Positions 27,326 to 35,258 of a stretch of DNA of 64,000 nt are shown here, piece after piece (position 1 is the stretch's first letter; each line of letters starts with the position of its first letter). The notes under the pieces are model-generated. The model searched no databases. It had not been told where the DNA came from and saw only the letters and a program-made list of their open reading frames with translations. Made by a program: the position numbers and the translations under genes. This DNA comes from Bacteroidales bacterium (GTDB lineage Bacteria > Bacteroidota > Bacteroidia > Bacteroidales > WCHB1-69), in contig JAFZXM010000005.1 in assembly GCA_017616775.1 (NCBI GenBank), positions 1 through 64,000 of the forward strand, read 5' to 3'.

Positions 27326-27718
27326 ATGAAAATTGAAAGTACATTTTCTTCTTTTGAAGGTGAAGTTATACATGGCATGGAAATTGGCAGAACATTGGGA
27401 TATCCCACTGCCAACCTTCAGACTTCCGCCTCCGTTCCTCTGCGCGGCGTATTTTTGGTGCAAATTTTTATTCCCGCCTGTCAAAAATCCCACTATGGCA
27501 TAATGAACATAGGGGTGCGCCCCAGTTTAAACAAAAATCAAATAAGCATAGAAGTGCACATTTTGGATTTCCACAATAACCTATACGGGCAAACCATTCG
27601 GATTACCCCCTTGCAAAAATTGCGTAACGAACAAAAATTCAATTCACTAAACGAACTCAAGCAACAAATTGCATCGGATGAAGAACAAGCCCGCAATATT
27701 ATTGACAGATATCATTAA
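27326..27718 (+). CDS. Stand-alone riboflavin kinase
   Basis: 130 residues covering just the flavokinase domain. It should phosphorylate riboflavin to FMN. The ATP/flavin-binding motif is visible as GRTLGYPTANL (about 22-32), followed by GVF, the GIMNIGVRPS block (about 56-65) and the HILDF...LYG segment, with the catalytic Glu in IEVH. Bacterial RibF is normally a fusion of about 310 residues whose N-terminal half makes FAD; that half is absent here. No frameshifted remnant lies upstream, and a promoter sits right before the ATG, so it looks like an intact one-domain gene. FAD synthesis must then be done elsewhere. Confidence 0.88.
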   Translation: MKIESTFSSFEGEVIHGMEIGRTLGYPTANLQTSASVPLRGVFLVQIFIPACQKSHYGIMNIGVRPSLNKNQISIEVHILDFHNNLYGQTIRITPLQKLRNEQKFNSLNELKQQIASDEEQARNIIDRYH

Positions 27719-27758: not shown

Positions 27759-27766
27759 TAACTTTG
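27759..27766 (+). promoter_or_regulatory. -7 promoter element of gatE-gatD
   Basis: TAACTTTG matches TAnnTTTG, 64 nt upstream of the GTG at 27831. Confidence 0.55.
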
Positions 27767-27830: not shown

Positions 27831-29786
27831 GTGAATAATATCAATCCTCAACAAAATTACGAATTAAGCAAAAAAGCTATCGGCTATGTGGACCGCAAGC
27901 AAGCTACACAAGCCGATTATGATCGTATCGGTTTTATGTCCGGATTAGAAACACACCAGCAGCTGAACACTAAAGAAAAATTATTTTGTCACTGTCCTGC
28001 CGGTATATTTCAAAAATCGGACGAATACGATGCCGAATTGCTTAGACACATGCGTCCCACCCTTTCAGAAATGGGCGGATATGACGGTACAGCCTTAATG
28101 GAATTCAAAACACGTAAAAACATTATATATCGTATTTCTAACAAAACAGCCTGTACATACGATGTTGACGATACGCCTCCTTTTCCTCTCAATAGGGAAG
28201 CATTGCAATATGCTTTGGAAATAGCATTGGCATCCAAGTTGAACATAGTAGGGGAAGTTCATGTTACCCGCAAACAATATTTAGACGGCTCCATCCCTAC
28301 GGGATTTCAACGTACGGCCATTTTGGGCGTGGAAGGAGAAATTCCTCTCAAGCACAAAAAAGTTCGCCTCATACAATTAAGTATAGAAGAAGATGCCTGC
28401 CGTGAAGTATCCGATATCGGTCACACCCGTATATACCGTACTGACCGTTTGGGCATGCCTCTGATTGAAACCGTTACTGCTCCGGAATTAAAAAATCCCG
28501 ATGAAGTAAAAGAAGCCGCCCAATATATACGTTTTCTGAATCGCAGCACCGGCCACGTAAGAACAGGCATAGGCGCCGGACGGCAAGATGTGAATGTGAG
28601 TTGCAAAGGCGGCACCCGTATAGAAGTTAAAGGTGTGTCCCACACCAAATGGATACCCGATGTAACCCATTACGAATGTTTCCGCCAATGGGCTTTGCTT
28701 GCCATACGTGACCAACTTAACCGACGTATCAGCAAACAAAATTGGAAAATGAATTATATGGAACTCAATCCTAAAAAATTCAAATTCTATTTCTCGCCCA
28801 TCACCGATGCCATAGCACAAAATAAAAAAATATATGCTGTCAACTTACCCGAATTCGCCGGTTTGTTGTCGCATTTTTGCCAGCCGGGCCGTCCTTTCTA
28901 CGATGAATTTGTGAATCGCCTTAAAGTGATCGCCTGCCTGGAACGCCCCAATATGGCCACCAGCGAAGATATAGACGATGTGGTAAGTTCCCATGTGTTC
29001 GACGAAATCCGCTCAGCCATGAACGCCGGAGAACAAGACGCTCAAATTATATTCTGGGCCGACGATGACGATGTTCAAACTGCATTGGACACCATAGAAG
29101 AACGGGCTTTGATGGCTTTTGACGGAGTTCCCAGCGAAACCAGAAAGGTAATGTACGATGCCACCACTATCTTCGAACGTGTATTACCGGGTGCCGACCG
29201 TATGTATCCCGATACAGATTCTGCCCCCATACCTTTAACCAATGAATATATAGAGAGTCTTAAACAAAATATTCCCGATGAAATAGCAGACCGCTACGCA
29301 CAATGCACGCAATGGAATATTCCGGAAGACTGCTTTACATACATCTTCTCCAATAATCATTATCCTATGATCAAACGCATAATTAATGAATTGGACATCA
29401 CTCCGAAATTTGCAGGCACTTTCTTTGGCCACACGCTTAAACATCTTCACGGACAATATGGCAGAATTCCATTCTGCACTTGCCGGATTTATCATTTATT
29501 TGCTTTCTTGAAACAAAAAAATATCAATTACGGCATTGCCAAGAATATGTTAAAAATAATGTTTGAACACCCCGAAATGGAATTCGAAAATATACTTAAA
29601 GAACTTCATTTTCAAACATTAACGGAAACAGAATTAATACAAAAAGCCAAAGATTTGGCTAAACAGCCATTTGTTGCCTATCGTAAAAACACGAATAACC
29701 AAGACAGAATCAACACCATCATGGGACAACTTCATTACATGGGAATAGGCAATATTAATTTAGGCAAATTAGCCGAAGAATTGTAA
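27831..29786 (+). CDS. gatE: Archaeal-type Glu-tRNA(Gln) amidotransferase subunit GatE
   Basis: 651 residues with a GTG start. GatE is the tRNA-binding kinase/transamidase subunit that, with GatD, converts Glu-tRNA(Gln) to Gln-tRNA(Gln). It shares the GatB cradle fold: GLETHQQLNTKEKLFC and the following C-x-C (metal site), YDVDDTPP and GFQRTAILG. The HQQL signature, the extra length compared with GatB (about 480), the central AspRS-like GAD insertion (about 270-420) and the helical/YqeY-type tail point to GatE. The gatD gene follows after 24 nt. In known genomes this pair is an archaeal trait. Codon use looks like that of the neighbours, so any transfer is old. Confidence 0.92.
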   Translation: MNNINPQQNYELSKKAIGYVDRKQATQADYDRIGFMSGLETHQQLNTKEKLFCHCPAGIFQKSDEYDAELLRHMRPTLSEMGGYDGTALMEFKTRKNIIYRISNKTACTYDVDDTPPFPLNREALQYALEIALASKLNIVGEVHVTRKQYLDGSIPTGFQRTAILGVEGEIPLKHKKVRLIQLSIEEDACREVSDIGHTRIYRTDRLGMPLIETVTAPELKNPDEVKEAAQYIRFLNRSTGHVRTGIGAGRQDVNVSCKGGTRIEVKGVSHTKWIPDVTHYECFRQWALLAIRDQLNRRISKQNWKMNYMELNPKKFKFYFSPITDAIAQNKKIYAVNLPEFAGLLSHFCQPGRPFYDEFVNRLKVIACLERPNMATSEDIDDVVSSHVFDEIRSAMNAGEQDAQIIFWADDDDVQTALDTIEERALMAFDGVPSETRKVMYDATTIFERVLPGADRMYPDTDSAPIPLTNEYIESLKQNIPDEIADRYAQCTQWNIPEDCFTYIFSNNHYPMIKRIINELDITPKFAGTFFGHTLKHLHGQYGRIPFCTCRIYHLFAFLKQKNINYGIAKNMLKIMFEHPEMEFENILKELHFQTLTETELIQKAKDLAKQPFVAYRKNTNNQDRINTIMGQLHYMGIGNINLGKLAEEL

Positions 29787-29810
29787 ATTTACTAATAAAA
29801 CCACATTACA

Positions 29811-31268
29811 ATGGAAGACAAAACATTTCAAGGATATAAAGGAAGAGCTTTAGACATATTAAAAAAATACGATGTACACGTATGGGATAAAGCGGAAGTA
29901 GATACCACCAGAGGCCATTTCAGCGGAAAAATATTACCGCGTGCCGAAAACACCGACGACCTGCACATAGTCATGAAAGTGATTACGGGCTACAATATCG
30001 GTCTTGACATAGAAACCATCACCCACATGAAAGGCGAACGGGATCCCCAACCCAATTTCAAAGTGCCGGAAAAAGAATTTCCCTATACCAAAGGTTTGCC
30101 TCATGTTAAATTATTAGGCACCGGCGGCACCATCGCCTCCCGTTTGGACTACCGTACGGGTGCCGTTATCCCTGCTTTTTCACCGGGTGAATTGTTCGGA
30201 GCCGTACCCGAATTGGCAGATATCTGCAATTTGGATACCGAAAAAGTTTTTGCCGTATTCTCCGAAAACATGTCTCCTAAAGAATATATGGCTTTAGCCA
30301 ATAAAATAGGTGACGAAGTGAAAAACGGCATAGACGGCATAGTGATTGGACATGGTACAGATACTTTGGCTCATACCGCTACCGCGTTGACATATATGTG
30401 CCAAAATTTACCCATGCCCGTAGTATTAGTCGGGTCACAACGTTCTTCTGACCGTCCCAGTTCCGATGCCGCCCTTAACCTGATGCATGCCATGACCGCT
30501 GCCGGTCATGGAGACATAGCAGAAGTGATGGTGTGTATGTTCGGCCCCACCTCCGATGAATACGGATTCCTGCATCGCGGTACAAGAGTACGTAAAATGC
30601 ACTCTTCTTATCGCTCCACCTTCCGTACCATAGGAGATACCCCACTGGCCACCATCAGCCGGAAAAACGGAGTGCAACCTATCAAAGAAATATATAATCA
30701 CAGACGTAAAGGTGCTGAAAGAGAAGTAGAAATCATCACCAATTTGCAAGATTACAAAAAAAGCATCGCCACCAACAATCCCAATATCACACGTATAGTT
30801 CCTACCTTTGACGACAGGGTGGCTATATTGTATTATTATCCGGGTATGAAACCCGATGTGCTGGAAGCCCTGATAGAAAAAGGATATAAAGGAATAGTAT
30901 GGGATGGAACAGGATTAGGACACGTCAACAAAGGCATGTTCGATGCTATCCAAAGAGCTACCGATGCCGGCATTCACCAATATATGTGTGTACAAACCAT
31001 TTGGGGTTACACCCATATGTTCGTTTACGATACCGGCCGTGACCTCATGGCCCGGGGCATTATCCCTGCTGACAATATGCTTGCCGAATCGGCCTATATC
31101 AAATTAGGTTGGGCATTAGGCCTTTCTCACGACAGAGAAGAAGTTCGTCAGCTGATGCTCACCCCTATCAACAGTGAAACCACTCCCAGAGAGCCCTACG
31201 ACGGATACCTTATCTATCAAGGCGGCGTTCCCGAAGTGGAAGAATTCGTTCACAAAGTACACAAATAA
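29811..31268 (+). CDS. gatD: Archaeal-type Glu-tRNA(Gln) amidotransferase subunit GatD
   Basis: 485 residues. GatD is the asparaginase-like subunit that releases ammonia from glutamine for GatE. An N-terminal domain of about 85 residues, beta-rich and absent from plain asparaginases, precedes the amidase. All catalytic threonines and partners are visible: TGGTIASR (about 104-111), the second Thr-Asp in GHGTDTLAHTA (about 184), and VLVGSQRSSDRPSSDA with its conserved residues. The C-terminal domain ends near the family length (archaeal GatD is 430-450). Adjacency to gatE makes a simple asparaginase unlikely. A strong terminator follows directly. Confidence 0.93.
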   Translation: MEDKTFQGYKGRALDILKKYDVHVWDKAEVDTTRGHFSGKILPRAENTDDLHIVMKVITGYNIGLDIETITHMKGERDPQPNFKVPEKEFPYTKGLPHVKLLGTGGTIASRLDYRTGAVIPAFSPGELFGAVPELADICNLDTEKVFAVFSENMSPKEYMALANKIGDEVKNGIDGIVIGHGTDTLAHTATALTYMCQNLPMPVVLVGSQRSSDRPSSDAALNLMHAMTAAGHGDIAEVMVCMFGPTSDEYGFLHRGTRVRKMHSSYRSTFRTIGDTPLATISRKNGVQPIKEIYNHRRKGAEREVEIITNLQDYKKSIATNNPNITRIVPTFDDRVAILYYYPGMKPDVLEALIEKGYKGIVWDGTGLGHVNKGMFDAIQRATDAGIHQYMCVQTIWGYTHMFVYDTGRDLMARGIIPADNMLAESAYIKLGWALGLSHDREEVRQLMLTPINSETTPREPYDGYLIYQGGVPEVEEFVHKVHK

Positions 31269-32258: not shown

Positions 32259-35258
32259 TTATTTCAATACGGTAACATGACCCACGAATTCATATTCCTG
32301 ACCCGTATAGTCTCTTACCACTATTCTGTAAGTATATACGCTATTAGGAGCTACATATTTTCCTTCTACCGTACCATCCCATTGAACTGAAGGATCTTCT
32401 GTCATAAATATTCTTTGTCCCCAACGGTCAAATATGGTAAGCATATACCCGTTTTCGGAATATTCACTCATCAAAGGTCCCCATGTATCATTCAATCCAT
32501 CACCGTTAGGTGTGAAGGTATTGGGAATAAACACATTCAACTCATCATATACATGTATTATTTTTGATATGGTATCGGTGCAACCGTTTTTGTCGGTTAC
32601 CTCCATGAACACCACATAGTCTCCTGCACTTTCATAAGTATGATATACTATATTTCCGGTAGAGGTGTTACCGTCACCCATATCCCAATCCCAAGCTTTG
32701 GGAGTACCTTTGGAGGCGTCGGTTAATGTAAAGATGGTGTTGCTGGCTACGCTATATGAATTAGCTTCAAAATTAGCGGTGGGACCATCCACATGTTCTA
32801 CGGTAAATGTTTCTTGTGCTACACAGAAAGTATCTTGAACTATCACCGTATAGGTTCCTTCTTGTACATTGGTTACGGTATCTCCTGTTTCTCCGCTCAC
32901 ATCGGTAGGTGTTCCCGACCATTGATAAGGCTTGAGGGTGGAAGGATCTCCGCTTTGTACGGTGGTGATAATGGTACCATCGCTTCTACCGCAAGTTTCG
33001 GGGGTGGTTTTACCGCTCAGTTTCAAAGAAGGATAACTGCCCACCGTTACCGTTGTATCAGCTATACATCCATTGGCATCCACACCTTTAACGGTATAAG
33101 TTCCTGCTGCAATATTCACCATTATGGAATCCATTACCATACCGGTATTCGGTGTCCACGTATAGGTGATAGGCGCTTTGGCATAATCTATATGTACGGC
33201 TATTGCACCGTTTTTGCTGTCACAAGTTTCTATTCTTATGGTATCTACATATATGATAGGATACGGCAACGCTGTTACTTCCACACTATCCAAACGAATA
33301 CAATCGTTTGCATCGGTAACGGTAACATAATACCAACCCACACCCAAGTTTCTTGCATAGGCTCCATTGCCTTTATTCACACCATCCGAGTTTTTCCACA
33401 CGTAAGAATAAGGAGGAGTACCGCCTGTAGGCACTACATGTACCACACCATTATCCAAACCGCAAGTGGTTTCTTCTTGGGATGTTTCACTTTCCAACAA
33501 AGGCGGTTCTGTAATATTCACTTCCATTCTCAACTCACAGCCTTGGGCATCTATGGCATAGAATGTATATTTTCCTGCAGCCAAATTTCTATATGTTTTT
33601 CCATTTACATTAGAATTATAGTCTATGGAATCCTCGCCGTTCACATTTTTTAATGTCCAATAAGCATTTTGAATAGTGGCGGCACCTGTGATGGCTCCAT
33701 GTGTAAATTGGCCTGTTTTTTCTCCGTAACACAAAACATCAACTTGCGTAATAGGCATTTGCGGCTTTAAAGGAGTTACCACAAAAGTATCATAGGCATA
33801 ACAGCCCACCGAATCCAGCGATTTTACATAATATGTTCCCGGACCGTTGATACCAAAGGATTCTCCATGGGCAGGACCCACAGTTACTCCGTTTTCTTTT
33901 TTACCCGTCCATTCATGGTCTACAAAGAAAGAACGAACCGTATTTACATATAATGTATCTTCACTGCCTTCGCATATTTGCTCGTTACCGTATATTTCCA
34001 CTTCGGGAGAAGGATACACTCTTATCCAGTGTTCCACTTCGGCTTTAGAAGTATCTGCACAACCGTTTTCGGCTTCCACTGTCAAACGTACCAGATAATC
34101 CACCGGTTGATTGGTGGGAGGATCGGGGAATGTGAATGTCCAAAGGGAATCTTGCGATTGGAAGTTTGTTCCTTCTATTTCCCACAAAACATTGTCTTTT
34201 TTACTATTTACCACTGTGGACATATCTACAAACGTAGCCGTTCTGCTACAAGTGTCATAATAATTTTGGAAAATGCCGAGATGATTTAAATGGTCGGGAT
34301 CTTCTATATTCACCCAGTGTTTGCTGTTATATTCCACTCCGAATACAAAACTTGCATCAATGGAAGTTTTTGCTATGATGGTTTTCAAAGTGGAAGTACA
34401 ACCCAATTCGGAAGTAATCACACAAGTGAATTCTTCACCGTCCAACGGGTTTTGAATATTAATTTGCTTGGTATATGCATGCCATGCCGGTTGCGAACTT
34501 CTGGACCAGTTGTAAGAATTGAATCCTTCCGGAGCTTTCAAACGTGCGGCACTTTGACCTTCACAATAGGTTAAGTCTATAGTCATAGGACGGCATTCTG
34601 CCACCAGATAGGCATATCCGTAGTGACCGCTCAAAGTACAGTCACGCACCTCATATCTAATCACAATGGTTTGGCCTATCAATGGTTCCAAACTGAAACC
34701 GACCGTAGTCCAGTCTTTGGCAACCAATGAGGAGGTATTACATGCCAAACCTGTAAGGCTTCCGCTGGATACAAAGTTCACACAACCGCAAGGGAGGTTT
34801 AACTGATGACCTGCCGTGTCATAAATACACATCATGAACAAAGGTTGGTCACTTTCACTATGACCGGGGTTCTCCATTACCCATGCAAAAGACAATATCA
34901 ACAAGTCGTTAGTACTGTCTATTGTCATTCTGTACGATACGGCATCTACCTGAGCTCCTGTACCGTTATTACCCAACAACATTGAATAAGCATAACCCGT
35001 CGGCACTTTGGTGATCACACTACATGCAGGATCCTGCATTTCTCCGCCTGCCGTTAACTGAGCGGCGTTTAAAATAGTGTGGTTACCGGGTATCGGAGCT
35101 GTCGGCACACAAGTGTAATTACCGCTTGCACAGCTTCCGTGATAGCATTGCCAATAGGTAAGATTACCATAGGACAAATTCAAATTAGGACATTGTGCCA
35201 GAATAGTCCCGCAGGCTGACATCAACACTGCAACGGCGAATAATGTTAACTTTTTCAT
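32259..35258 (-). CDS. Large secreted T9SS cargo with PKD, SprB-like repeats and type B sorting domain
   Basis: 999 residues with a signal peptide (1-21). The N-terminal third has a Cys-rich, jelly-roll-like region. From about residue 500 there are roughly four SprB-type repeats, each with a C-G-x-x-(D/N)-G start, a GGTPPYSYxW-like core and a YTVxVxDxNGC end. A PKD domain (about 825-900) has the WDWDMGDGNTS motif. The last 94 residues are the gliding-motility-associated C-terminal (type B) sorting domain, with FTPNGDGLND and FDRWGQRIF. This domain routes the protein through the type IX secretion system to the surface, where it probably acts as an adhesin. No gliding gene is adjacent. Confidence 0.9.
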   Translation of the reverse strand: MKKLTLFAVAVLMSACGTILAQCPNLNLSYGNLTYWQCYHGSCASGNYTCVPTAPIPGNHTILNAAQLTAGGEMQDPACSVITKVPTGYAYSMLLGNNGTGAQVDAVSYRMTIDSTNDLLILSFAWVMENPGHSESDQPLFMMCIYDTAGHQLNLPCGCVNFVSSGSLTGLACNTSSLVAKDWTTVGFSLEPLIGQTIVIRYEVRDCTLSGHYGYAYLVAECRPMTIDLTYCEGQSAARLKAPEGFNSYNWSRSSQPAWHAYTKQINIQNPLDGEEFTCVITSELGCTSTLKTIIAKTSIDASFVFGVEYNSKHWVNIEDPDHLNHLGIFQNYYDTCSRTATFVDMSTVVNSKKDNVLWEIEGTNFQSQDSLWTFTFPDPPTNQPVDYLVRLTVEAENGCADTSKAEVEHWIRVYPSPEVEIYGNEQICEGSEDTLYVNTVRSFFVDHEWTGKKENGVTVGPAHGESFGINGPGTYYVKSLDSVGCYAYDTFVVTPLKPQMPITQVDVLCYGEKTGQFTHGAITGAATIQNAYWTLKNVNGEDSIDYNSNVNGKTYRNLAAGKYTFYAIDAQGCELRMEVNITEPPLLESETSQEETTCGLDNGVVHVVPTGGTPPYSYVWKNSDGVNKGNGAYARNLGVGWYYVTVTDANDCIRLDSVEVTALPYPIIYVDTIRIETCDSKNGAIAVHIDYAKAPITYTWTPNTGMVMDSIMVNIAAGTYTVKGVDANGCIADTTVTVGSYPSLKLSGKTTPETCGRSDGTIITTVQSGDPSTLKPYQWSGTPTDVSGETGDTVTNVQEGTYTVIVQDTFCVAQETFTVEHVDGPTANFEANSYSVASNTIFTLTDASKGTPKAWDWDMGDGNTSTGNIVYHTYESAGDYVVFMEVTDKNGCTDTISKIIHVYDELNVFIPNTFTPNGDGLNDTWGPLMSEYSENGYMLTIFDRWGQRIFMTEDPSVQWDGTVEGKYVAPNSVYTYRIVVRDYTGQEYEFVGHVTVLK

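Follow-up and report, generated by a model that had tools for sequence, protein, structure and literature searches.

A GatDE amidotransferase pair of archaeal type encoded beside glutaminyl-tRNA synthetase in Bacteroidales

Introduction

The closest described relatives of the system reported here are the archaeal GatDE amidotransferases, represented by the structures from M. thermautotrophicus (2d6f) and P. abyssi (1zq1). GatDE has been described for the formation of Gln-tRNA(Gln) only (PMC8007984), is reported to use the archaeal tRNA(Gln) with an A1-U72 pair, and is not known from archaea in the same cell as glutaminyl-tRNA synthetase (GlnRS) (PMC9499178). Reviews describe GatDE as restricted to archaea, and a 2014 survey knew of no bacterium that encodes both routes to Gln-tRNA(Gln). 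Bacterial GatCAB also amidates Glu-tRNA(Gln), and its GatB subunit is homologous to GatE. In Deinococcus, Thermus and Bdellovibrio, which possess GatCAB together with AsnRS and GlnRS, an amidotransferase is kept beside the direct synthetases, and its product in these bacteria is Asn on tRNA(Asn) (PMC4206432).

Here, we describe a computational analysis of a gatE-gatD pair in the genome of a Bacteroidales bacterium, found within a window of 64,000 nucleotides (the whole stretch of DNA that was analysed). The pair resembles archaeal GatDE in both subunits, in domain order and catalytic residues, in the GatD_N domain and the GAD insertion, and in predicted fold. It differs in its bacterial host, in the presence of GlnRS in the same cell, in a host tRNA(Gln) with U1-A72, and in forming a separate, long-branch clade whose GatE is only 30-34% identical to archaeal GatE. 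In contrast to GatCAB, whose ammonia subunit is the GatA amidase, no GatA is found here, and GatB models score well under cut-off. We found no paper on GatDE in Bacteroidota in the open-access literature. As in Deinococcus, Thermus and Bdellovibrio, the amidotransferase is retained beside direct synthetases.

Results

Gene pair and domain composition

The features of the locus, with the evidence for each, are as follows.

27759-27766, plus strand: Bacteroidota-type -7 element TAACTTTG, a possible promoter 5' of gatE (consensus match only)
27831-29786, plus strand: gatE, Glu-tRNA(Gln) amidotransferase subunit E, 651 aa, GTG start (TIGR00134, NF003107 and PDB matches)
28734-29129, plus strand: AspRS/GAD-like insertion domain, GatE residues about 302-433 (VIA-align against AspRS insertion domains, Z up to 12)
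29811-31268, plus strand: gatD, Glu-tRNA(Gln) amidotransferase subunit D, glutaminase/asparaginase-type, 485 aa, ATG start (TIGR02153 and PDB matches)
29880-30020, plus strand: GatD_N domain, GatD residues 24-70 (PF18195, 35.1 bits, cut-off 25.7)
30105-31157, plus strand: asparaginase N and C domains, GatD residues 99-449 (PF00710, PF17763; TGGTIAS, HGTDT and KMHSS motifs)

The original prediction, made from the letters of the window, was of a complete GatDE pair, and its particulars were borne out: a 651-residue GatE with an HQQL motif and a GAD-type insertion is followed, 24 nt beyond the gatE stop codon, by a 485-residue GatD with an extra N-terminal domain and the catalytic threonines. GatD carries TGGTI, HGTDT and KMH motifs. 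Both full-length proteins exceed the cut-offs of curated family profiles. GatE scored 403.8 bits against TIGR00134 (gatE_arch, cut-off 319.55) and 473.9 bits against NF003107 (cut-off 456), and GatB models reached only 68-140 bits, far under their own cut-offs. GatD scored 468 bits against TIGR02153 (gatD_arch, cut-off 324), and plain asparaginase models fit it less well than the GatD model; it is the GatD_N domain that separates GatD from plain asparaginases. Alignment with the subunits of PDB entries 1zq1 and 2d6f was nearly full length for GatE (E 1e-83 and 2e-79, respectively) as well as GatD (E 1e-104 and 3e-101). The GatE tail has a weak likeness to the Pfam GatB_Yqey domain (23.6 bits, below the cut-off of 27), and in archaea this tail is at least as variable as here. 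On sequence grounds, positions 27831-31268 encode a true GatDE pair, with both subunits complete and catalytic motifs intact. The promoter that had been proposed stood in part: a -7 element, TAACTTTG, begins at 27759, but no TTTG (-33) was seen at the usual spacing of 19-21 nt 5' of it.

An AlphaFold model of GatE (m2af3f5231f6e), built on the window and archaeal sequences, had a mean pLDDT of 83.6, with low confidence in the last 75 residues. Its best structural match was GatE of the M. thermautotrophicus GatDE-tRNA(Gln) complex (2d6f_D; Z 38.9 over 512 residues), followed by P. abyssi GatE and then by GatB. The alignment with 2d6f_D spans residues 25-577, comprising the cradle, the insertion and most of the tail, and the modelled insertion resembles that of AspRS (Z up to 12).

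Genomic context and glutaminyl-tRNA synthesis in the host

The host genome is 2.10 Mb in size and 93.5% complete, and gatDE lies in a single 67-kb contig (C25) among ordinary chromosomal genes, including atpD, a TsaD/TsaB-family gene, a flavokinase and a glycosyltransferase. The gene directly 5' of gatE (27326-27718, plus strand) encodes a riboflavin kinase domain of 130 aa that stands alone (PF01687, 134.9 bits); the FAD synthetase half, which in bacterial RibF usually comes before it, is missing. On the other side, positions 32259-35258 (minus strand) encode a secreted-looking repeat protein of 999 aa with a gliding-type C-terminal domain, as judged by eye. One same-family genome holds both the nearest GatE, 71% identical, and the nearest GatD, 92% identical. 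These same-family homologues and the occurrence of the pair in 65 of 149 sampled genomes of the host order uphold the earlier view that it is native and not recently transferred; together with the chromosomal flanks, the homologues make a chimeric assembly an unreasonable explanation.

A family search for class-Ic synthetases found exactly two genes in the host genome, both full length: a GlnRS of 563 aa (TIGR00440, 786 bits, cut-off 425.8) and a GluRS of bacterial type of 508 aa (TIGR00464, 471.7, cut-off 289.95). This family search yielded no second, dedicated GluRS, and that for the GatA/amidase family (PF01425) gave no match in the 93.5% complete genome. The genome contains a tRNA(Gln) gene for each of the anticodons UUG and CUG. 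Since an intact GlnRS and both tRNA(Gln) isoacceptors are encoded, the direct route is complete, and GatDE is an extra that replaces nothing.

The original prediction had supposed that Gln-tRNA may be formed through GatDE, with a GluRS that also charges tRNA(Gln), and had taken a lack of glnS and gatCAB as support. The pair is genuine and native, and the searches that had been proposed returned no amidase-family match for gatA and one GluRS for gltX, but GlnRS is present (563 aa, 786 bits), and a need for GatDE in Gln-tRNA formation is not supported. An intact GlnRS beside a silent GatDE had been named as evidence against the idea; the GlnRS half of this combination is what we observe.

Distribution of GatE and GlnRS

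We examined 149 genomes drawn evenly from the host order and a phylum sample of 296 genomes. GatE scored over cut-off in 63 of the 149 host-order genomes, and two long fragments bring the count to 65. The 22 occurrences among the 296 were the host genome and 21 genomes from outside its class, with none in the 70 sampled genomes of the same class that belong to other orders. GlnRS exceeded its cut-off in 134 of the 149 host-order genomes, with partial matches in several more, and was absent from 6 of 65 genomes with GatE versus 6 of 84 without (Fisher p 0.76), so that GlnRS appears practically universal in the host order, with or without GatDE. In other classes, nearly all genomes with GatE also have two class-Ic synthetases.

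The genomes with GatE and no apparent GlnRS (G369, G329, G304/G421, G424 and G435) were considered as natural replacements of GlnRS and rejected, since members of their genera or families, where sampled, have GlnRS. Three clean cases (G369, G329 and G304) were followed. In congeners of G369, GlnRS lies about 12-14 kb from GluRS, and the GluRS of G369 itself is followed by a contig end after about 1.6 kb; GlnRS is also present in the other members of the genus of G329 and in the one further member of the family of G304. Because relatives have GlnRS and the GluRS of G369 lies near a contig end, these few genomes likely reflect assembly gaps. Outside the class, a 99% complete genome (G287; L004/L096) holds GatE, a GatB-like match and only one class-Ic synthetase, and is a candidate for two amidotransferases without GlnRS.

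A plasmid location of gatDE was also considered and set aside, the only plasmid to match over most of the query being haloarchaeal. A glutamine synthetase type of about 500 aa, the only glutamine synthetase found in the host genome, occurs in 62 of 65 genomes with GatE versus 37 of 84 without in the order sample (Fisher p 4e-12). Among independent pairs on the GlnRS tree the sign test gave a median p of 1, with few informative pairs, and the co-occurrence is provisionally regarded as a clade effect.

tRNA and GluRS features bearing on the substrate

Both host tRNA(Gln) genes carry U1-A72, not the archaeal A1-U72. The A1-U72 pair is a trait of archaeal hosts and not of the protein family, and its lack here lowers confidence in the substrate rather than in GatDE membership. 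In the host GluRS, the position that corresponds to Thermus Arg358, a residue linked to the rejection of tRNA(Gln), is also Arg. The same residue occurs in all 18 GluRS tested, from genomes with GlnRS and also from G287, where no GlnRS was found, and the position was therefore discarded as an uninformative test of discrimination. In tRNA(Gln) with the UUG anticodon, the 5-68 pair is C5-G68 in 32 of 33 genomes with GatE, and U5-A68 is found in 16 of 34 without (L291-L359, L080). The difference does not stand as evidence of co-adaptation: more than 70 columns had been screened, and the independent pairs (7, median p 0.5) were too few to separate selection from descent. In both tRNA(Glu) isoacceptors of the host (CUC and UUC; L072 1501-1575 and L200 100-172), the acceptor stem terminates in a G1-U72 wobble in place of G1-C72, the bacterial identity pair.

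Descent and conservation of gatDE

Trees of GatE and of GatD place the sequences of the phylum and those of archaea (the best 80 matches to a Pyrococcus query) on opposite sides of one fully supported branch, and the Bacteroidota GatE clade is split from the archaea by a long branch. The original prediction had looked for a clade nested inside Archaea. In both trees, for which no root was inferred, the sampled archaea form one side of the supported branch, so the clade lies beside them and nesting was rejected; the donor of gatDE may have been archaeal. Within the phylum, both trees contain one group for the host order and one for the other classes. A locus from another class (L023, genome G156) carries gatE and gatD of the host-order type, and each of the two trees places it within the order. 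As both subunits at this locus are of that type, at least one transfer of the pair from class to class has taken place. When the presence of GatE is mapped on a GlnRS tree of 80 genomes, 25 changes are required, and well supported branches supply at least 10 independent contrasts; gatDE is thus repeatedly lost, or gained, within the host order.

Where the genes are kept, they are highly conserved. The active-site residues of GatE, His (HxQL), Glu (EED) and Glu (PLxE), are invariant in 39 of 39 host-order sequences and in archaea, and the TGGTI, HGTDT and KMH motifs are invariant in all 38 host-order GatD. Values of dN were 0.06-0.22 and dS was saturated in most pairs; in the two pairs where dN/dS was computable, it was 0.04 and 0.07. 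gatDE is thus under strong purifying selection. Additionally, all 21 loci examined have gatE directly followed by gatD, and among them no conserved neighbour genes were found beyond the pair. This constant adjacency without conserved neighbours suggests that the two subunits suffice as a unit. That gatDE is often moved and lost and is yet conserved where kept indicates that it probably does something useful and optional.

Discussion

We consider it rather probable that GatDE acts here as an accessory amidotransferase beside GlnRS, serving as a second route to Gln-tRNA(Gln) or as a repair route. Ammonia freed by GatD from glutamine (or asparagine) would be handed to GatE, which, at the expense of ATP, would convert the Glu on Glu-tRNA(Gln) to Gln. 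The Glu-tRNA(Gln) itself would be made by the single bacterial GluRS, placing Glu on tRNA(Gln) as a regular activity or by mistake. The two genes, their intactness, the selection on them, their coexistence with GlnRS and their patchiness are observed; the chemistry is inferred from family membership, and the tRNA substrate and the accessory role are inferences as well. Such a route would be useful and dispensable, which fits its patchy presence. In its favor are the full-length subunits above family cut-offs, their invariant active sites and low dN/dS, the match of the predicted GatE fold to the tRNA-bound structure, the constant gene pairing, the similar frequency of GlnRS absence with and without GatE, the intact GlnRS and GluRS, both tRNA(Gln) isoacceptors, and the lack of GatA; against it count the lack of a dedicated second GluRS, the U1-A72 pair of tRNA(Gln), and the weak GatB_Yqey tail. 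The wider proposal, that many bacteria of the host order form Gln-tRNA(Gln) in one cell both by GlnRS and by GluRS with GatDE, the latter as a conditional or repair route that has accompanied GlnRS throughout the order, is more tentative, and we hold it at somewhat less than an even chance.

Of the other explanations, the one that survives best is that GatDE has been retuned to a different Glu-bearing substrate, such as another aminoacyl-tRNA, a peptide or a protein, and no longer has a role in Gln-tRNA formation. The redundancy of the classical job with GlnRS, the lack of A1-U72 in tRNA(Gln) and the long branch separating the clade from archaea would all suit such a change, but the predicted model retains the cradle, the GAD insertion and most of the tail, in agreement with the structure of GatE bound to tRNA, and no conserved neighbour suggests another pathway; we regard this explanation as unlikely. 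We give still less credence to GatDE as an accessory protection module, a bypass for times when GlnRS is inhibited or glutamine charging fails, that spreads and is lost as accessory genes are. It would account for a very patchy distribution (25 changes, at least 10 independent contrasts), for a self-contained two-gene unit at no fixed location, and for the transfer of both genes between classes at L023. However, it would still require GluRS to charge tRNA(Gln), and among the neighbours, as far as these were annotated, none pointed to a link with resistance, defence or mobility.

That GatDE is the only route to Gln-tRNA(Gln), GlnRS having been replaced and GluRS being non-discriminating, is very improbable: GatDE is intact and the family search gave no GatA/amidase in the genome, but GlnRS is intact here and in nearly all genomes with GatE, and the apparent exceptions have relatives with GlnRS, a contig-end gap being likely in G369. 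Least credible of all is a decaying relic or an assembly chimera, which might explain the patchy presence but not the strong purifying selection, the invariant active sites, the same pair in dozens of independent genomes, or the chromosomal flanks within one 67-kb contig.

From their gene content, the host-order genomes with GatDE appear to encode both routes to Gln-tRNA(Gln). Since the NCBI models for GatE and GatD score over cut-off, the proteins are probably already labelled as such in databases; what seems novel is the combination of GatDE with GlnRS, which has gone undiscussed, and not the family itself. If the wider proposal is true, these would be the first bacteria shown to have both the GlnRS route and the GluRS and GatDE route to Gln-tRNA(Gln). 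The host order is a large group of anaerobic bacteria, and the finding that about four of every ten genomes sampled from it combine a conserved GatDE with GlnRS breaks the statement that GatDE is confined to archaea.
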